A stretch of DNA of 57,885 bases from a virus. Positions 9,478 through 36,437 of the stretch are shown here, piece after piece. The position numbers and the translations under genes were made by a program. Position 1 is the stretch's first letter. The number at the start of each line of letters is the position of its first letter. Where the stretch lies: the IMG/VR virus record IMGVR_UViG_3300046170_000085, positions 1 to 57,885 of that record; one strand, written 5' to 3'. Below the pieces are notes generated by a model, which did no database searches, was not told the DNA's origin, and was given only the letters and a program-made list of their open reading frames with translations.

Positions 9478-10944
9478 ATGACTGTCAAGTACAATTTTAA
9501 ATTAAAACCATTTGACCATCAGCTTGATGCGTTACGCAATGGTGTGCACCGTAAAGAGTACGGTTACTTCATGGAGATGGGAACTGGCAAGTCCAAAGTT
9601 CTGATCGACAACCTGGGTATGTTGTTCCTCGACGGGCAAATAAACTTTGCTTTAGTCCTCGCACCAAAGGGTGTGTATCGTAACTGGGTAGCCAAAGAAA
9701 TCCCAGAGCATATGTCTGATGACATACCACATAGAGTAATCCGATGGGTCGCATCTGCCAACAAGAAACAGACAGAAGAAATGCGATCAGTCAAAGATAA
9801 CTTCGCAGGGCTGACGATCTTTGTCATGAACGTGGAGTCCTTCTCCACAAAGAAAGGTCAGACAGCAGGCGAATGGATGGCTCGTACATTCGGTAACTAT
9901 GGACTGATTGCCATAGACGAATCAACGACGATCAAAAACCATAAGGCTAAACGAACCAAGGCACTCCTCAAGATTGCCTCACAGTTTAAGTATCGACGGT
10001 TGCTGACAGGTTCACCGATAACCAAGTCACCCCTAGATATATATTCACAGACAGAGTTCCTCCGACCAGGACTCATGGGTCATGAATCTTTCTATACATT
10101 CCAAGGTAGGTACGCTGTACTGCAACGCAGATCCATGGGTGCCAAGTCTTTCCAACAGATCGTCGGCTACAAGAACCTCGATGAACTGACAGAAAAGATC
10201 GATACCTTTTCATACAGGGTGCTCAAGAAAGACTGCTTGGATCTACCAGATAAAGTCTACACCGCCAGGTACGTGACGCTTACCGATGAGCAGTTTAGAA
10301 TGTACTCATTGCTACAACAACAGGCCATGCTTCTGTTCGAGGATGGCGAGATTGTATCTGCACCCGCTGTAATTACCCAGATGCTACGCATACAACAGGT
10401 TCTATCTGGACATCTGAAGACTGATGATGGCGAGATGAAATACTTTCCGTCACGCCGGATGGATGCACTCAAAGAAATCTTGGAAGAGCACGACGGTAAA
10501 GTAATTATCTGGTCACGATTCCGATACGACATAATACAGATAACTCAAATGTTGAACAAAGAGTTTGGTGAAGGGTCAGCTGCTGCATACTACGGGGACA
10601 CAACAGACGATGAACGCCAGTCTATCGTGCAACAATTCCAGACCCCCGGTTCTCGGCTCAGATTCTTCGTGGGCAATCCTGCCACCGCCGGATACGGACT
10701 GACTTTGACCGAAGCAGATCTCGTGATATACTATGCCAACGACTTTAACCTGGAGACACGCATTCAATCTGAAGATCGAGCACACCGCATTGGTCAAAAG
10801 AATAATGTGACATACATAGATCTAGTATCGGAGGGCACAATCGATGAGAAGATTGTCGAAGCTCTCCGCAATAAGATCGACATCGGAGCACGAGTGCTAG
10901 GAGAAGAGGCAAGAGAGTGGCTGACTTTGACCCCAAGAAGATAA
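9478..10944 (+). CDS. SNF2/Swi2-family DNA helicase
   Basis: An SF2 ATPase of 488 residues. Motif I is MEMGTGKSKV; motif II has DES in place of DEAH (LIAIDESTTIKN); motif III is LLTGSPI. The C-terminal lobe has YYGDTTDDER, GNPATAGYGLTLTEAD (motif V) and SEDRAHRIGQ (motif VI). Phage members of this family act in replication, recombination or repair. GGAG lies about 8 bases before the ATG at 9478; a GTG at 9475 is an alternative. It is the only rightward gene of the replication region apart from its small partner, and has its own promoter and terminator. Confidence 0.93.
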   Translation: MTVKYNFKLKPFDHQLDALRNGVHRKEYGYFMEMGTGKSKVLIDNLGMLFLDGQINFALVLAPKGVYRNWVAKEIPEHMSDDIPHRVIRWVASANKKQTEEMRSVKDNFAGLTIFVMNVESFSTKKGQTAGEWMARTFGNYGLIAIDESTTIKNHKAKRTKALLKIASQFKYRRLLTGSPITKSPLDIYSQTEFLRPGLMGHESFYTFQGRYAVLQRRSMGAKSFQQIVGYKNLDELTEKIDTFSYRVLKKDCLDLPDKVYTARYVTLTDEQFRMYSLLQQQAMLLFEDGEIVSAPAVITQMLRIQQVLSGHLKTDDGEMKYFPSRRMDALKEILEEHDGKVIIWSRFRYDIIQITQMLNKEFGEGSAAAYYGDTTDDERQSIVQQFQTPGSRLRFFVGNPATAGYGLTLTEADLVIYYANDFNLETRIQSEDRAHRIGQKNNVTYIDLVSEGTIDEKIVEALRNKIDIGARVLGEEAREWLTLTPRR

Positions 10945-11132
10945 CTAAGATAATGGAAGAACGTGCAACTGGATACGCTTCCCGCGAAACAGCAGCTAAA
11001 GAATTATCTGAGATGACAGGACTGAGCTACGATGTAGCCAAAGCATTCTGCTCCAACCTCAAACCCAGAGGGTCAGCAGGCATAGCCGAAGTGCGTGGAT
11101 ATAAAAAAGGTGAATGGCCTAAGAAAAAATAA
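10917..11132 (+). CDS. Small basic protein downstream of the SNF2 helicase
   Basis: 71 residues starting at a GTG inside the last 28 bases of the helicase gene, with a GAGG-type ribosome site just before it. The sequence is charged and helical (KKITKIMEERATGYASRETA) with a basic C terminus ending in KKK. I do not recognise it. Tight overlap suggests a partner of the helicase. A terminator begins at its stop codon. Confidence 0.65.
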   Translation: MADFDPKKITKIMEERATGYASRETAAKELSEMTGLSYDVAKAFCSNLKPRGSAGIAEVRGYKKGEWPKKK

Positions 11133-11160
11133 GGGAACGTATGGAGCAACGTCCCCTTTA
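11131..11160 (+). terminator. Rho-independent-type terminator after the SNF2 operon
   Basis: Arms at 11131-11140 and 11149-11158 pair over ten positions with one A/C mismatch around an eight-base loop. The outer pairs are A-T and the right side runs into CTTTAG. It ends the two-gene rightward island before the leftward genes begin. Confidence 0.6.
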
Positions 11161-11173
11161 GTTTCGAGCATAT

Positions 11174-11341
11174 CTAAACTTTAGCAGATTCAAAAACTTT
11201 TGCATACTCTTTTCTAATTATGACCGACAACTGTCGCGTCATGCTCCTTTGATCCTCGTTTGCTAACGCATTAAGCATGTCATGATCCTCTGGTAACAGA
11301 GCCACGTTGCAGTACTTGCGTTCTTCCTTCTTCTTAACCAT
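11174..11341 (-). CDS. Ribbon-helix-helix-like small protein
   Basis: A 55-residue product beginning MVKKKEERKYCNVALL. A short beta strand (RKYCNVALLPED) is followed by two helices (HDMLNALANEDQRSM and TRQLSVIIRKEYAKVF), the shape of an Arc/CopG-type DNA-binding dimer. AAAGGAG lies about 6 bases before the ATG. It is the last gene of the leftward small-gene cluster. A repressor role is plausible but inferred from fold only. Confidence 0.65.
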   Translation of the reverse strand: MVKKKEERKYCNVALLPEDHDMLNALANEDQRSMTRQLSVIIRKEYAKVFESAKV

Positions 11342-11374
11342 CTTCTTGCTCCTTTATTGTAGCACAGTTATATA

Positions 11375-11827
11375 CTACTTGTCGGTAGGAAGCAATATGT
11401 ATGCATCTGTTTTGAAAAATAACTGTTGATTCATTTCGAGCAGCGGTTGCACAACTTCAAGCTCCTCGTCCACCCCTTCTGCAACTTCCGATACAGTAAA
11501 AGGTATACCTGGATCAGAGTCTGCCATCCATTTTACTATCCTGTTGACCAACGAATCCAACCTCACATGGGTCGTGTCCAGGTCAAGCTCTATCGGCTCA
11601 ACTCGCATAGCTCTCCACGGTATCTGTTCGCGTTTATCTGGGTAGTTTGGCAACAAGAATGCATCATAAGAATCCCCAGGTTCTACCTTCATTGCATTCA
11701 CAAGACGAGCATTCATAAACACTTGCTCACCTTGTGGATTAACTGCAAACCCACTACCAGTATCCGTTATGTATTCAACAATTATCTGCTGCTTCCTTGT
11801 GTTGCTTATATCAAAAACGTGGGTCAT
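11375..11827 (-). CDS. Unknown protein with possible OB-like and winged-helix parts
   Basis: 150 residues. The first half is beta-rich (SGFAVNPQGEQVFMNARLV, then VEPGDSYDAFLLPNYPDK and IPWRAMRV), reminiscent of cold-shock or OB folds. The second half looks like a short winged helix (PFTVSEVAEGVDEELEVVQP). A GGAG box precedes the ATG, and the gene overlaps its upstream neighbour by 17 bases. I know similar unnamed sequences from marine phages but no function. A nucleic-acid-binding role is a guess from the fold impression. Confidence 0.7.
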   Translation of the reverse strand: MTHVFDISNTRKQQIIVEYITDTGSGFAVNPQGEQVFMNARLVNAMKVEPGDSYDAFLLPNYPDKREQIPWRAMRVEPIELDLDTTHVRLDSLVNRIVKWMADSDPGIPFTVSEVAEGVDEELEVVQPLLEMNQQLFFKTDAYILLPTDK

Positions 11828-12728: not shown

Positions 12729-12969
12729 CCTTGACCACCTCCCACACGCCCTCGGCTCCTGCGTCTATATTAGTATCCCGAATCAAACCTTTGTTGTGCA
12801 AAGCAGATAGCTGCGGACGCACAATCGATAGCTTTAAACCCATCCGGTCTGCGAGTTGCCGAGCGGTTCCTGGGCCTCGATCGAGTTCAGCCAGGACTTG
12901 CTCCTTCCGAGTAAGTGCCTTGTTGTTTTGTCTCTTGCTAGTTAGCTTCTTCCAAAATTCTTTGATCAT
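12721..12969 (-). CDS. Winged helix-turn-helix protein
   Basis: 82 residues. After a basic N terminus the sequence follows a MarR/ArsR-like pattern: TRKEQVLAELDRGPGTARQL, ADRMGLKLSIVRPQLSALHN as the HTH, and KGLIRDTN leading into the wing. GAGGAG precedes the ATG at good spacing. It is a plausible candidate for a phage transcription regulator, for example at the TTACTTGTAA operators described here, but this is inference. Confidence 0.8.
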   Translation of the reverse strand: MIKEFWKKLTSKRQNNKALTRKEQVLAELDRGPGTARQLADRMGLKLSIVRPQLSALHNKGLIRDTNIDAGAEGVWEVVKDV

Positions 12970-13456
12970 CTTCTACTCCTCTCAATGCTTGAGTGATTTC
13001 TTCTAATGGTGTTAAGTCTAACCCAAAACTTTCCGCACATCCACGATAACGTGAAAGCCACGCAGCCATTGATGTTGCGGCCTGTCTTCTGAGTTCTTGT
13101 TGATCGTTCTCATTGTCAGGATCAAAAGCCACATAACCACCACCGTTCTTTCTGTTCTCTCTCGGAGAGATCAACGCAGGATATTCCCTGGTCTTTATTA
13201 TAATCGGAAGTTGTTCTTGTTCTTGTGATTCTTTGATCACGATCCTTAGTCCACTTGCCATCTGACGAGCCAAACCAATTCGATATTGTCTCGCAGCTTC
13301 TATATCATCCATACCATAAAACCATTCGTAAGCCTCATGATCAGGCTGTACACCTAACCAATCCACAAACTCATGTGGTACAAACATATTGCGACCTGAC
13401 GCCGCCAAGTATTCGTCAATAATTCTTTGACGTTCTTTCTTTGGAAAACCAGCCAT
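12938..13456 (-). CDS. Unknown protein, first gene of the small-gene cluster
   Basis: 172 residues from the ATG at 13456, preceded by GAAGGAG; the 197-residue reading begins inside the repeat array and is not credible. The N terminus is basic (MAGFPKKERQRIIDEYLAAS), with a DFx-like segment HEFVDWLGVQPDHEAYEWFY and a C-terminal helical part. Related unnamed proteins occur in marine phages. It follows directly after the pentamer array, so its leader may contain that array. Confidence 0.7.
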   Translation of the reverse strand: MAGFPKKERQRIIDEYLAASGRNMFVPHEFVDWLGVQPDHEAYEWFYGMDDIEAARQYRIGLARQMASGLRIVIKESQEQEQLPIIIKTREYPALISPRENRKNGGGYVAFDPDNENDQQELRRQAATSMAAWLSRYRGCAESFGLDLTPLEEITQALRGVEDDQRILEEAN

Positions 13457-13485
13457 ATTTTTTCTCCTTCTATTAGCTGTTAATT

Positions 13486-14026
13486 GACCGCCGTACCTTG
13501 CCGGACCTAGGCATACCAAGACCCGTAGCACCGCAACGCGACCGCCATACCATGACGCACCGAACCGACCATACCGATCCGTACTCCATCAAACCAAGAC
13601 CGCCTTGACTTAACATGACCTAACTTAACGTGACCTAACGGAACTGACCTTACCGCACCCCGACCGCCTCGCCTGACTGGACCCCGACCGAACACACCTG
13701 ACCCCGACACACCTCGACCGCCTTGACCAACCTGACCTCTCCACGCCCCGCCGAAAGCTGCCCTGTCTTGACCGCCTCAACCCGACTTACCCAAACACCC
13801 ATAACATACCCAACCCCGCGCCGACCGACTTACCGCAACAAAACGGACCACAACATAACTGATCTCAACGGACCTCACCCAGACCGCCTTGACCCGCCTG
13901 TCCTTGCCTTAACGTACCAAAACACAACGCATCCCGTCGTAACACACCCAGACCGCCTGACCCAACCAGACCGTACCCCGCCCTAACCGAACGTGCTCGA
14001 CCGCACCTCGCCCAGACCGTCTAACC
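13486..14026. repeat. Degenerate NNAMC pentamer array with GACCGCC boxes
   Basis: A non-coding C-rich, G-poor stretch built of five-base units. The clearest register is 13605-13659, eleven units in a row (TTGAC, TTAAC, ATGAC, CTAAC ... GCACC), and 13830-13879, ten units (TTACC, GCAAC, AAAAC ... TCACC). A longer box GACCGCC recurs at 13486, 13540, 13598, 13662, 13716, 13770, 13882 and 13951, with GACCGAC at 13823 and variants at 13969, 13999 and 14015, about 50-70 bases apart. Five-base periodicity excludes coding. A rightward terminator follows, so a rightward RNA is possible; the flanking genes read leftward. Confidence 0.8.
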
Positions 14027-14040
14027 TTGACCAAATAGAT

Positions 14041-14068
14041 GGGGGCACTCGGCCCCCGATCCTTTTTT
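14041..14068 (+). terminator. Rightward rho-independent terminator after the pentamer array
   Basis: GGGGGC (14041-14046) pairs with GCCCCC (14052-14057) around a five-base loop, then GATCC and six T. On the other strand the hairpin is followed by only ATCTATTT, so the rightward direction is better. No rightward protein gene precedes it; only the repeat array does. Confidence 0.65.
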
Positions 14069-14849
14069 ATTCCGCAGCTATGAGAGTAACGTCTCTTCGT
14101 GATCGTTCTTCATCCAAGAACTGCATCAACTCATTGGTCTGCTCGTCAGCATACACTGGGTTGTCCAATGCCTCTTGCTGAACATCGCGTCCCTCTTTCA
14201 TGAGTTCATCCCAGTCTTTCTGGTAGTCGCCCATGCTGTCTTCTGTCAGCACATCAAACGTACCAAACGAACCACGCCCCTTCTCCTGTCGGAAGTCTCC
14301 AATTCCAACAATCGAGCCTGCGTTTGTCAGCAACGATACAATCGAATACTGACTGAGCGTTGGCTGAACATACGCAATGTCAACCTCTGCACACCACCGA
14401 GGTAGATACGCACGGGTTCTCATGTCTGGGGTCTTGTTCATGTCCGCAGATCGAACCATGTCAATCTTGAGTTGCGGTGTACCCCAGATCTGAACGTGGG
14501 TTTGTGGTAGAAAAATCAACCGCTGAACACTGGTCTTGGTTATACCGTCCGTTTCCAATGCCGCCGTCGCCATCGCGCCCTTGACCCCTGGAGCAGGAAA
14601 ACATAACAGAGTTTCTCCAAACGGTTTCTTGTACACCGAATCTCGGAACTCCTGTTCTGGGTTGTGTTTGATCTCCTTACGTTGCGCGGCTGTCTTCTTG
14701 CCGCCACCGATTAAAAGATCACGCATGGCCTTGCTGCTCATGCTGTTGAAATATAATGGGGTCGTGCCCATCATGCGAAGCTTAATTCTTCCTCTTTTCA
14801 ATGGTTGAATTTCTAGTGTTGCTTCTTGTGGTACTTTCTTAGTTGCCAT
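14067..14849 (-). CDS. Conserved phage protein, possibly RAMP-like
   Basis: 260 residues. Conserved-looking blocks are GTTPLYFNSMSSKAMRD, LIGGGKKTAAQRKEIKHNPE, CFPAPGVKGAMATAALE and a late Gly-rich GIGDFRQEKGRGSFGTF. I know this family from many phages without an assigned function. The early GTTPL strand and the late glycine-rich loop recall RAMP/Cas7-type ferredoxin folds, but I cannot test it. AAGGAG precedes the ATG. The stop codon lies in the T-tract of the terminator that closes the pentamer array, so the two elements abut. Confidence 0.8.
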   Translation of the reverse strand: MATKKVPQEATLEIQPLKRGRIKLRMMGTTPLYFNSMSSKAMRDLLIGGGKKTAAQRKEIKHNPEQEFRDSVYKKPFGETLLCFPAPGVKGAMATAALETDGITKTSVQRLIFLPQTHVQIWGTPQLKIDMVRSADMNKTPDMRTRAYLPRWCAEVDIAYVQPTLSQYSIVSLLTNAGSIVGIGDFRQEKGRGSFGTFDVLTEDSMGDYQKDWDELMKEGRDVQQEALDNPVYADEQTNELMQFLDEERSRRDVTLIAAE

Positions 14850-14920: not shown

Positions 14921-15064
14921 TCAACAACTATTTTTATCCTCCTTTCTAAATTCATGAAATATCATGTTAATTGTTTCTCGGTACTCGTCTTGAGTATCGA
15001 ACTGAGCGATCACAAGTGATCCTATTATCTCGCATAAGCGATCTAATTCTTTGTCGTCCATCAT
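14921..15064 (-). CDS. Small acidic protein coupled to the methyltransferase
   Basis: 47 residues, [17 protein letters not shown] at the N terminus, helical and acidic. GGAGG lies six bases before the ATG, which overlaps the methyltransferase stop (ATGA). No family recognised. The 71 bases downstream, before the next gene, are AT-rich with no clear promoter. Confidence 0.6.
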   Translation of the reverse strand: MMDDKELDRLCEIIGSLVIAQFDTQDEYRETINMIFHEFRKEDKNSC

Positions 15065-16176
15065 CGAACCTCCATGTAACTTTCGATTAACCCTTGCGCG
15101 ACTGGCGCTGTGATGGCGTTGCCGTAGGCGCGGAGGCGTCCCACTCGGGCGGTAGCCCCATGAGCCAACGGGAATGACTCGGGTCTAACTGGCCTCCACT
15201 TTCCATCTCGGCACAAGAGCCAGTCAACATCTGACCACGCGCCGTTAGTCTCATTGGCCCTGCCATCTTCGACATCTGGGTCAGACTGCTCCCCGTCATT
15301 CGATCCGTGATCCCCGAACCTCCCCTCGTTCCGTCCGTTGCCGATGGCGTTGTCCACCCCGACATCTGAGATTGCTCCGCCAGATTGTGACCCCGACTGT
15401 TCCACTCCTTGACCGACTCTGGTTTCGCCGCTCCCTTGTGATCCGCTGTGGTCGGTGTCGCCCATCCCCACAGTACCGCTACCACTTCCTCCAGATTGGA
15501 TTTGTTGCGGTTCGCTAACTTGTCTCGGTTCTGTTCCGTGATCTCGGGATGAACTAAGTTCGCTCTCGGTGTCGGCCACCCCGTCAGTTGTGCCGCTACG
15601 TCCAACGTGTCCGTGCTGATCTTGCCGTTGCGTATCCGACCCCCTTGGTATCCACCCTTGTGATCTCGGGTTGTCGGTGTCGGCCACGAACCAAAGCCTT
15701 TGCCTGATGTGCGGTGCACCGAAGCTCGCAGAGCAGAGATCGAAAGCCCCGAGGGCGTAATCCGCTCCTTCCATGTCAGCTTGTACAAGGTCGATCCAAC
15801 CAAGTCCGTCTTTACTCGCAACCTGTTCTCCAAAGACTGTTGAAGGTCGGCACTCTTCGATGAGGTGAAACCAGTGAGGCCAGAGGTGCCGCTCGTCAGC
15901 CATCCCTTTTCTCGTGCCTGCACCGCTGAAAGGTTGGCAAGGACACGATCCCGTCCAGACGGGTCTGTCGTCTTCCCATCCCGATTGTCTGAGGGCACGA
16001 CTCCAGACTCCAATTCCTGCGAAGAAGTGACATTGAGTAAATTCATAAAGCTCTTCTGGTTTGACATCCGATATACTCCTTTCATCGACCACACCATCGG
16101 CAATGTGACCATCTCTAATTAAGTTTCGTAACCATGCCGCAGCATAAGGATCTATCTCGTTATAGTAGGCACTCAT
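15061..16176 (-). CDS. DNA (cytosine-5) methyltransferase
   Basis: 371 residues. Motif I is [14 protein letters not shown], the catalytic Cys lies in GSCPCQPFS (motif IV), motif VI is VFGEQV (EQV where many enzymes have ENV), motif VIII is IRQRLWFVA, and motif X is [13 protein letters not shown]. The section between about residues 185 and 315 is low-complexity (VADTD..., [10 protein letters not shown]) in place of an ordinary target-recognition domain. This same DNA encodes a second protein in another frame. It probably protects phage DNA from host restriction; no partner endonuclease is visible nearby. The start overlaps the upstream stop. Confidence 0.92.
15087..16067 (-). CDS. Overlapping ORF nested in the methyltransferase gene (WPTP-repeat protein)
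   Basis: 326 residues in the +1 frame, wholly inside the methyltransferase gene. Its ATG at 16067 has a strong AGGAG eight bases upstream, while the outer frame needs no signal there. It carries repeated [34 protein letters not shown] and [10 protein letters not shown] units and ends with [20 protein letters not shown] recall similar WPTP/WLMG sequences accompanying this methyltransferase type in other genomes, which suggests a conserved dual-coding arrangement; this is memory, not a search. Function unknown. Confidence 0.6.
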
Positions 16177-22358: not shown

Positions 22359-25921
<3,563 letters not shown>

Positions 25922-25925
<4 letters not shown>

Positions 25926-27386: not shown

Positions 27387-29857
27387 TGGCATTACCACCT
27401 CTAGTAGATTCAGGAATCAGGCCCGAAGACATGATACCCACTGAAGCGTCAGTTGATGTATCAGTTGCACAACCAGAAACTTTTGAAAGTGGTGCGGAAG
27501 TTATTCCTGACGGGCAAGGTGGTGCAGTTATTCAAGCTCTGACACAGGCTCTCATGGGAGCCGAGCAAGAGCAACAGGTTCCACATGACGCAAACATAGC
27601 GGAGTTATTAGATGATGGGTATCTTGGAGAACTTTCTACGGATCTTAGGGGGTCTTATGAAGAGGATATGGAGTCTCGTTCAGAGTGGGAAGAGACTTAT
27701 ACTAAGGGTCTTGATCAGCTTGGTGTCAAGCATGAGGAACGCTCTCAGCCATTTGAAGGAGCTTCTGGAGTCACTCATCCCCTGATTGCGGAGAGTGTTA
27801 CTCAGTTTCAAGCGCAAGCATATAAAGAACTGTTACCATCTGGTGGTCCAGTAAAGACTCAAGTCTTGGGTTTACAGGATGCAGCTAGAGAAGAACAAGC
27901 TTCTCGTGTTAAGAACTTTATGAACTATCAGATTATGGAGGTCATGGAAGAGTTCGATCCAGACATGGATCAGTTGTTATTCTATTTACCGTTGTCTGGT
28001 TCTACATTTAAGAAAGTATATTTTGATCAAGCAAAACAAAGGGCGGTATCTAAGTTCATTCCGGCGCAGGATCTGGTTGTACCTTATGCTGCATCGGATC
28101 TGGCGACTGCTTCTCGTGTTACGCATGTTCTACGCATGGACGCGAATGAAGTTCGCAAGATGCAAATCGCGGGGGTCTACAAAGATGTAGAACTAAGCAA
28201 GTATGATGAGGGTGAAGACGAGGTTCGTCAGAAGATAGACGAGATACAAGGTACATCTAAGACATACACAGACGAAGTGTTCACTATTCTAGAGATGCAT
28301 GTCGATCTAGACCTTGAGGGTTTTGAGGATATGTCTCCAAACGGAGAGCCAACGGGGATAGCACTTCCTTACATTGTTACGATTGATGAGGGATCTGGGA
28401 AGATTCTAGGCATACGTCGTAACTTTGAAGAGGGTGCGGGGCTTGCAAAGAAAACACAGTACTTTGTGCACTATAAGTTTATGCCAGGTCTAGGCTTTTA
28501 TGGCTTTGGCCTGATCCACATGATTGGTGGCCTTGGTCGTGCGGCAACGAGTATCCTTCGACAGTTGATCGATGCAGGTACACTTGCCAATCTCCCAGCA
28601 GGATTCAAGGCCAGAGGGGTGCGGGTTCGCAATGATGACGAGCCTTTGCAGCCTGGGGAGTGGCGGGACATCGATGCACCTGGCGGGAATATACGGGATT
28701 CGATTATCCCGCTGCCATACAAAGAACCATCTGGTACGCTGGCACAGCTACTGGGTGCGCTCATAGAAGGCGGTAGACGCTTTGTTTCCCTTGCCGACCA
28801 GCAGACTGCCGACGCGAACGGTCAGGCTCCTGTAGGGACGACTGTGGCTCTCCTAGAGCGTGGTATGAAAGTCATGTCCGCTATTCACAAGCGGCTCCAC
28901 TACTCACAGAAACAGGAGTTCCGTGTACTAGCGCGGATCTTCCGTGACAATCTACCACCAGAATACCCTTACGATGTTGAGGGTGGTAACCGAATGATCA
29001 AAGCAGAGGACTTTGATAATCGTGTTGACGTTATTCCTGTAAGTGATCCAAACATATTCTCAATGGCACAACGGGTTACACTAGCACAAACACAGTTGCA
29101 GCTTGCTCAGTCTAATCCACAGGTACACAATCTACACGCGGCTTATCGCCGGATGTACCAAGCCCTCGAGGTACAGAATATAGATGAGATACTGCCTCCA
29201 CCACCACAACCACAGCCATTAGATCCTGCTATTGAGAATGCTCGTGCATTGATGGGAGAAATATTAAATACATTTCCAGAACAAGATCACGATATACACA
29301 TCCGTATACACATGGCGTTTATGAAAACACCACTTGTTATGACATCACCACAAGTCATGGGTACGTTCTACTCACACATTATGGAGCATGTTTCACAAAA
29401 AGCACGACAGATGGTGATGGAAGAAATAAAAGGTATTATAGGACAAGCAGAACTTGCAGCGCAAAGTGGAGCAATAGATCCGCAAGCAGCGCAAGTACAG
29501 ATTATGAAAGTACAACAGGATATGCAAGATCCTGCACAGATGGAGTCATTGATATCTTTGCAGATGGAAAAACTTATGGCAGAGGTTCTACCTGGATTGT
29601 TACCAACGGGTAATGATCCAATGGCAGATCCACTTGTTCAGATCCGTATGCAGGAGTTGGCTCTGAAAGAAAAAGATCTACAGCGTAAAGTAGAAGATGA
29701 TCAAGGTGACATGCTGATGGAACTACAGAAGATGCAGCAACGTGCAGCAACTGATGCTGCTCGTATTGAAAGCCAAGAAGACATTGCCCAGAACCGTAAC
29801 GAAGTAAACCGTGAACGCATTGACGTGCAGCGTCAGGCGGCGCAGCGGAGGGGATAA
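27386..29857 (+). CDS. Portal protein
   Basis: 823 residues, the size of podovirus portals (P22-like fold inferred). Typical blocks are FEGASGVTHPLIAESVTQFQ, LLFYLPLSGSTFKKVYFD, PAQDLVVPYAASDL, and a long helical C terminus rich in Gln and Met that could form a barrel. It forms the dodecameric DNA gate and docks terminase. The ATG at 27386 shares a base with the terL stop; a TTG at 27383 is an alternative. Confidence 0.9.
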   Translation: MALPPLVDSGIRPEDMIPTEASVDVSVAQPETFESGAEVIPDGQGGAVIQALTQALMGAEQEQQVPHDANIAELLDDGYLGELSTDLRGSYEEDMESRSEWEETYTKGLDQLGVKHEERSQPFEGASGVTHPLIAESVTQFQAQAYKELLPSGGPVKTQVLGLQDAAREEQASRVKNFMNYQIMEVMEEFDPDMDQLLFYLPLSGSTFKKVYFDQAKQRAVSKFIPAQDLVVPYAASDLATASRVTHVLRMDANEVRKMQIAGVYKDVELSKYDEGEDEVRQKIDEIQGTSKTYTDEVFTILEMHVDLDLEGFEDMSPNGEPTGIALPYIVTIDEGSGKILGIRRNFEEGAGLAKKTQYFVHYKFMPGLGFYGFGLIHMIGGLGRAATSILRQLIDAGTLANLPAGFKARGVRVRNDDEPLQPGEWRDIDAPGGNIRDSIIPLPYKEPSGTLAQLLGALIEGGRRFVSLADQQTADANGQAPVGTTVALLERGMKVMSAIHKRLHYSQKQEFRVLARIFRDNLPPEYPYDVEGGNRMIKAEDFDNRVDVIPVSDPNIFSMAQRVTLAQTQLQLAQSNPQVHNLHAAYRRMYQALEVQNIDEILPPPPQPQPLDPAIENARALMGEILNTFPEQDHDIHIRIHMAFMKTPLVMTSPQVMGTFYSHIMEHVSQKARQMVMEEIKGIIGQAELAAQSGAIDPQAAQVQIMKVQQDMQDPAQMESLISLQMEKLMAEVLPGLLPTGNDPMADPLVQIRMQELALKEKDLQRKVEDDQGDMLMELQKMQQRAATDAARIESQEDIAQNRNEVNRERIDVQRQAAQRRG

Positions 29858-35887: not shown

Positions 35888-35966
35888 TTGTTTAAAGATA
35901 AGTTACTCTGTTTGTATCCCTGACAGTCACATGGTGTGGCTGACTAACCCTAGACAGGAGATCAAC

Positions 35967-36437
35967 ATGGGTACGACAACTTTTTCAGGTCCGATTCGGG
36001 CAGGTAATATTAGAAATACAACGGGTACTGTCGTTGGAACAGACATAGCAAACGTCGGCTACGTTGTAATGACTCAACAACATGTAATGGATATTTCTGG
36101 CGGTGCTGTTGCAGCAGAAGCCACAAATGTAGTGATTCCCGCTAACTCAAAAATCGTAGACATAATTATCGATTTAGAAGTAGCTGCTAACACCACAACA
36201 AATATTAGTGTTGGTGATACTGTAGGCGGTGCAGCAACTCTTGTTAATGCTGTTGCTTCTGGAACTACTGTAGGTATTAAAGCTTTAGGTGCTTCTGGTG
36301 GTGGTACACTTACATGGAAGAACACTGGTACATCCGATTTAAAATTAACAGCTACCTCAAGCGCAGGTACGAATGCGGGATCAGTTGTTATAACAGTAAT
36401 GTATGCTCAGGCTTTTAACACTGCTGTTCAACCTTAA
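35967..36437 (+). CDS. Virion protein, beta-rich
   Basis: 156 residues from the ATG at 35967 (AGGAGATCAAC upstream); the longer ORF from 35859 runs through the terminator. The sequence has STFSGPIRAG-like N-terminal beta content (TTTFSGPIRAGNIRNTTG) and many Val/Thr/Ala strands. It is a widespread marine-phage protein that I would place on the head surface. Confidence 0.75.
   Translation: MGTTTFSGPIRAGNIRNTTGTVVGTDIANVGYVVMTQQHVMDISGGAVAAEATNVVIPANSKIVDIIIDLEVAANTTTNISVGDTVGGAATLVNAVASGTTVGIKALGASGGGTLTWKNTGTSDLKLTATSSAGTNAGSVVITVMYAQAFNTAVQP

Follow-up and report, generated by a model that had tools for sequence, protein, structure and literature searches.

A probable VIPR locus in an uncultured phage, with a continuous array of guides directed at rival elements

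We suggest that the pentameric array described here and the two genes on either side of it almost certainly form a VIPR locus, in which a vipr gene and a vap-like gene enclose a leftward array of about seven guides, aimed at rival elements through a code that skips one base per unit. The locus lies in what we call the window, the whole 57,885-nt stretch of viral DNA that was analysed. VIPR (Viral Interference Programmable Repeat) is described in a 2026 preprint as combining a RAMP protein, Vipr, with an accessory gene, vap, and with vrRNAs built of GGY/NN pentamers; the NN pairs of these read double-stranded DNA and leave out one base per unit (PMC13142463). According to the same preprint, the system serves conflict between phages and satellites and comprises seven types, some with staggered arrays and overlapping vrRNAs (PMC13142463). 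A first-pass annotation of the window, made from the letters alone, knew of no described phage element like the array; the match to VIPR supplies one.

Results

Structure of the array

The array runs from 13488 to 14031 on the minus strand, as delimited by a period test and HMM segmentation. The five-base period proposed in the first-pass annotation is real and strong: across 13481-14035, lag-5 identity reaches 0.445, while 500 dinucleotide shuffles give 0.302 (z 7.8). Harmonics are present at lags 10, 15 and 20 too, and a comparable signal is approached in no other 300-base stretch of the window. The unit, written earlier as NNAMC, does have five bases but is not so strict, being NNRMC on the plus strand and hence GKYNN on the minus strand. 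Across 6,532 units from related arrays, the minus-strand form is G-(G/T)-(C/T)-N-N, with G at position 1 in 94% of units, G or T at position 2 in 93%, C or T at position 3 in 95%, and a much more even composition at positions 4 and 5. Both uninterrupted registers seen before are present, each slightly longer in the HMM segmentation than had been counted (12 units at 13605-13664 and 11 at 13830-13884).

GACCGCC-like boxes, previously said to recur every 50-70 bases, lie 53-69 bases apart over most of the array. Read on the minus strand, the box is a unit one base short, GGCG, followed by GTC. In the relatives, boxes follow one another at 5n-1 bases: 509 of 700 spacings leave a remainder of 4 when divided by 5, and the distribution peaks at 54 bases. 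Every box thus contains a single unit of four bases, at which the register moves. Modules of GGYNN pentamers, read leftward, are split by these units; the long ones in the window count 10-13 pentamers, and short ones of 4-6 are also present. With its register shifted by each 4-nt unit, and with no long open frame running across it, the array was rightly called non-coding.

An Rfam scan of the window returned no family at the array and no hammerhead ribozymes, and a search for nucleotide similarity to known phage DNA returned none. Neither strand folds better than its own shuffles, and the rightward one is less folded than its shuffles (z 2.7). Between the vipr stop codon and the array lies a hairpin (14040-14058) that had been taken for a rightward terminator: it does carry a T6 tail in that direction, but it is terminator-like leftward as well, and the relatives retain its stem in altered sequence but have lost the rightward T-run. 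Directly after the array stands AGGAG (13464-13468, minus strand), the ribosome-binding site of the vap gene.

The vipr and accessory genes and their relatives

The gene at 14067-14849 (minus strand) encodes a protein of 260 aa which, on profile and model evidence, is Vipr, with a predicted RAMP fold of the Csm3/Cas7 type. A profile of its family (A2, 63 members; hmmsearch) matches one solved structure, PDB 36pp_D, "SUSP1 Vipr protein" (E 3.1e-10). In the SUSP1 genome, used as a positive control, the same profile finds vipr at 28474-29061; a second gene, vap1 by position, lies at 28031-28471, and discrete tailed vrRNAs lie on the same strand as vipr. Foldseek was run on the PDB with the structure that AlphaFold predicts for the window protein (mean pLDDT 87), and its best 50 matches were all chains of CRISPR effector complexes, mostly Csm (best E 1.2e-5). 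Vipr proteins have an RRM-core RAMP fold with a Gly-rich loop; in the window protein this loop is GIGDFRQEKGRGSFG, and residues G178, G182, G184, R187, G193 and G196 are invariant in the 63 sequences.

The vap-like accessory gene (12938-13456, minus strand) encodes 172 aa, and its relatives (129 matches, aligned) accompany vipr in nearly every locus with enough flank. The model of its product (pLDDT 88) has no Foldseek match in the PDB below E 0.5, and homology to SUSP1 vap1 is not detectable. Pfam gave no named family for either gene; in PHROGs, 14067-14849 matches one PHROG of unknown function, and again neither gene has a named family. Family scans found no nuclease family in vipr or vap and no Cas family among the neighbouring genes scanned.

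Scans of viral contigs yielded 159 stretches encoding close relatives of Vipr, and Gordonia-phage and Mycobacterium-phage queries added further sets. Among the isolated phages that carry the gene are Gordonia phages Ecliptus and UmaThurman and Mycobacterium phages Brocalys and Saal; three relatives come from bacterial contigs that bear the labels Rhodobacteraceae, Pararhodobacter marinus and Nealsonbacteria, the last being a metagenome bin. Of 145 vipr loci, 140 have a GGYNN array on the sense strand no more than 2.5 kb from the gene, either after vipr, between vipr and the next gene, or before it; in four of the five that have none, the contig stops no more than 30 bases from the gene. The proposed tie between array and 14067 gene is borne out, and in the relatives the array keeps its place beside this gene. 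The C/A-rich rightward RNA of about 550 bases, proposed alongside it, finds no support: in those 140 loci the vipr sense strand is the one that carries the G-rich GGYNN units, so the functional RNA should run leftward.

Several relatives have peculiarities of their own. The array at L133:4320-6701 extends over 2,382 bases, several-fold longer than that of the window; L153 and L155 have weak pentamer arrays, and in L154, a distant vipr-vap pair whose flanks are complete on either side, none is detectable. In UmaThurman a "hypothetical protein" gene (gene 40, L087:5634-5957) is annotated inside the pentamer array, probably as an annotation artefact. In Ecliptus (10338-11651, L085) the vipr-array-vap cassette stands between the tail assembly chaperone and tape measure genes, has HTH genes next to it and resembles an inserted module.

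The one-base-skip code

Arrays were cut into modules at the four-base units, and the 795 resulting guides of at least 8 units were compared with 2.27 Mb of the relatives' DNA, arrays masked. With a skip of one base, 21 guides had a match at E<0.05 and 5 at E<1e-3, whereas the controls (skips of 0, 2 and 3, and reversed base order) gave 2-8 guides at E<0.05 and 0 at E<1e-3; these E-values assume even base composition. One guide of L097 matches 22 of 22 bases in two phages, whose sites differ only at the skipped bases, and a guide of L058 matches Gordonia phage UmaThurman on the non-coding strand. The guide at L108:3606-3655 matches 18-19 of 20 bases in the LSLLDAGG-motif codons of other phages' vipr genes (19 of 20 at L102:3474, in the vipr gene of another phage), and VIPR carriers, to judge from such matches, appear to target each other's VIPR. 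As far as sequence can tell, these independent data confirm the published one-base-skip rule in a clade other than the bench-tested one.

Targets of the guides in the window

Targets are proven for two of the seven long modules in the window, all of which read on the minus strand. The guide at 13669-13718 (10 units, GA GT GG CA GT CG GG CC CA GA) matches the large subunit of the terminase (TerL). Nine of its ten units, or 18 specified bases, were found exactly (18/18) in at least 120 viral contigs among 2.9 million scanned, and several contigs match 20/20; the best match in the window itself is 14/20. By comparison, three further 18-base patterns built in the same way returned 0, 0 and 1 matches, so chance would account for about one match or fewer. 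All 80 sites examined fall in a single gene and a single frame, LAxLDEVGQVRGPxx, where the skipped base occupies the wobble position and varies, and Pfam identifies the gene as that of the terminase large subunit (TerL_ATPase, TerL_nuclease). This site (EVGQVRGPHD in the portion spelled by the guide) is the Walker B motif of the enzyme. Among 249 Rhodobacteraceae-family genomes the same guide has no convincing target; one of these genomes matches the pattern with one mismatch in a different gene, which we regard as chance.

The second proven case is the guide at 13958-14017 (12 units, TG GA GC CG AC CG AG GG AC CT TG CA), with the target family CEARTRSGTPCQ...CxLHGGxSTGP. It matches 23 of 24 bases in one of the 249 Rhodobacteraceae-family genomes (G095), where about 5e-4 such matches would be expected. 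The site codes for CEARTRSGTPCQ in a 114-aa protein that continues to GRCKLHGGASTGPRT. Eight guides from VIPR loci contain a dinucleotide string of the CRxHGGxSTGP motif, a motif of this type of protein, which makes chance even less likely. The target gene adjoins a primase-like gene and an apparent transposase, and for this reason it probably sits in an integrated element or its remnant. Two 9-unit patterns from the guide, run against the viral contigs, gave 0 and 1 matches, the single one chance-like.

The guide at 13830-13884 (11 units, TG GA CC GA CA AT GT CC TT GC AA) spells the HNH motif [DE][HQ][IM]VP[FL]A[KN]. An 8-unit core of it matches 46 contigs, mostly in HNH genes and in frame. 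This core was picked after the motif had been seen, and 9 units have no exact match in the viral contigs, so HNH genes as its target are only suggestive. Target searches found none for the guides at 13889-13953 (13 units, TG GT AC GG GC GT TT AC AA AA CA GG AA), at 13723-13772 (10 units, AA AG AG TC GG GT GA CA TG AA) and at 13605-13664 (12 units, GG GC AA CA CC AG AC AA AG AT AA AA; none among the 249 Rhodobacteraceae-family genomes either), nor for the last guide-like module, at 13488-13542 (11 units by HMM, one of them irregular).

Discussion

From homology, fold, array, strand, code and targets, all read from sequence and structural model, we infer how the locus would be expressed and processed and how it would bind and repress its targets. 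The array would be transcribed leftward with, or like, vipr and vap into a G-rich GGY-NN RNA. This RNA would then be cut into, or serve as, about seven guides, each 10-13 units long and delimited by a GGCG unit with GTC after it. Subunits of Vipr, a minimal Cas7-like RAMP, would coat the guide, one per pentamer, as its family suggests, and the NN pairs of successive units would pair with double-stranded DNA at two of every three bases, one being skipped per unit. In coding targets the skipped base is the wobble base, so that a guide would read a conserved peptide motif and a synonymous third-base change would offer no escape; the idea that reading codon positions 1 and 2 prevents third-base escape is raised in the preprint (PMC13142463). 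One guide of the window is aimed at the Walker B codons of TerL in other phages, and another at a small protein with CxARTRSGTPC..HGGxSTGP, encoded by what is probably an integrated element. Guide binding should block transcription of the target genes, and such a block seems more likely than cutting because neither vipr nor vap belongs to a nuclease family in the scans.

The window locus is a member of VIPR, itself a stripped-down relative of CRISPR, but its architecture is not that of the SUSP1-like type II. With type II of Escherichia phage SUSP1, as the preprint describes it (PMC13142463), it shares a Vipr RAMP gene with one small, putatively accessory gene near it, GGY/NN pentamer guides (9-16 repeats there, 10-13 units in the long modules here), one-base-skip recognition of DNA, alignment to the wobble position and targets in rival mobile elements. 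It differs in that its array is continuous, with about seven guides between vipr and vap and GGCG|GTC junctions, whereas each SUSP1 vrRNA carries a conserved 3' tail that the window array does not have; its accessory protein, moreover, has no detectable relation to SUSP1 vap1. Nor does it resemble VIPR with a hammerhead-interspersed array, given the Rfam result above. We would tentatively raise the possibility, which we ourselves rather doubt, that the clade represents a VIPR type without prior experimental characterisation, marked by a tail-less continuous array, guides delimited by GGCG and GTC, an unrelated accessory protein, and guides picked for invariant active-site codons (the terminase Walker B, the HNH motif, the vipr motif of rivals), which would block synonymous escape.

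Other RNA-guided systems are further removed. The RAMP subunits of class 1 CRISPR-Cas (Csm3/Cas7) share the predicted protein fold, and a filament on the guide RNA would be expected in both; in contrast, the window locus has no CRISPR repeats and no other cas gene in its neighbourhood, and its pairing is noncontiguous, with a period of five bases instead of six. TIGR-Tas, as described (PMC12045711), is likewise an RNA-guided, DNA-targeting array found in phages, but it relies on the Tas protein family and not on a RAMP with pentamer repeats.

As to what else the array might be, one reading builds on the first-pass annotation: a rightward C/A-rich RNA of about 550 bases with its own terminator, which would serve a TRAP-like ring protein as sponge or attenuator. 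The T6 tail at 14040-14058, the low folding of the rightward strand (z 2.7) and the five-base spacing, which is that of the (G/U)AG-NN sites of TRAP, speak for such a reading. We nevertheless consider it very improbable: the arrays follow the vipr sense strand in 140 of 145 loci whatever their position, and the T-run is not conserved. TRAP, moreover, binds GAG/UAG triplets set 2-3 bases apart, not the GKY (GGY) motif found on the array strand. What survives of that reading is a multi-subunit RNA-binding protein, by analogy, the partner being a Cas7-type RAMP of another fold; and the two variable bases carry guide information instead of serving as spacers, as their matches to real targets indicate. 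Much the same weight against applies to a DNA-level binding array (an origin, partition or packaging site) along which a protein would assemble on the double helix. Five bases do make about half a helical turn, and the array may stand upstream of, between or after both genes; yet its strand is fixed relative to the genes, and the N positions, which ought to be free, reproduce conserved coding motifs of other phages exactly when one base is skipped. Least credible of all is a coding sequence, decayed or repetitive: UmaThurman does have a gene annotated on an open frame within the array, but a period of five bases is not divisible by three, each 4-nt unit changes the register, and no long open frame crosses the array.

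An alternative within VIPR, that the array RNA is used as long overlapping guides running across the GGCG junctions, deserves more consideration, though we think it unlikely. The modules touch each other with neither spacers nor tails, and staggered arrays with overlapping vrRNAs occur in some VIPR types, as the preprint mentions (PMC13142463). Against this, complementarity fills a single module and stops at the junctions on both sides, in the 22/22 match of the L097 guide as in the TerL guide of the window, which argues for one guide per module.

The locus shows what guides of uncultured phages are aimed at: codons of catalytic motifs, with little freedom to vary. The relatives also bring the system into phages of Gordonia and Mycobacterium smegmatis that are isolated and easy to grow, and the simple grammar of the array, with its 5n-1 boxes, provides a way of finding and decoding further arrays.

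Additional observations in the window

Three features elsewhere in the window are of separate interest. On the minus strand, open frames of 371 aa (15061-16176) and 341 aa (15087-16112) overlap almost completely in different frames. A phage DNA methyltransferase (phrog_363) is encoded by one, and the other is also protein-like; the local GC is raised, at 0.57. A 1188-aa protein encoded at 22359-25925 (plus strand) has a very long Glu-Pro repeat near its C-terminal end. An Rfam match of 60 bits at 35918-35969 (plus strand) to Mu-gpT-DE RNA indicates that the phage carries a Mu-gpT downstream element.
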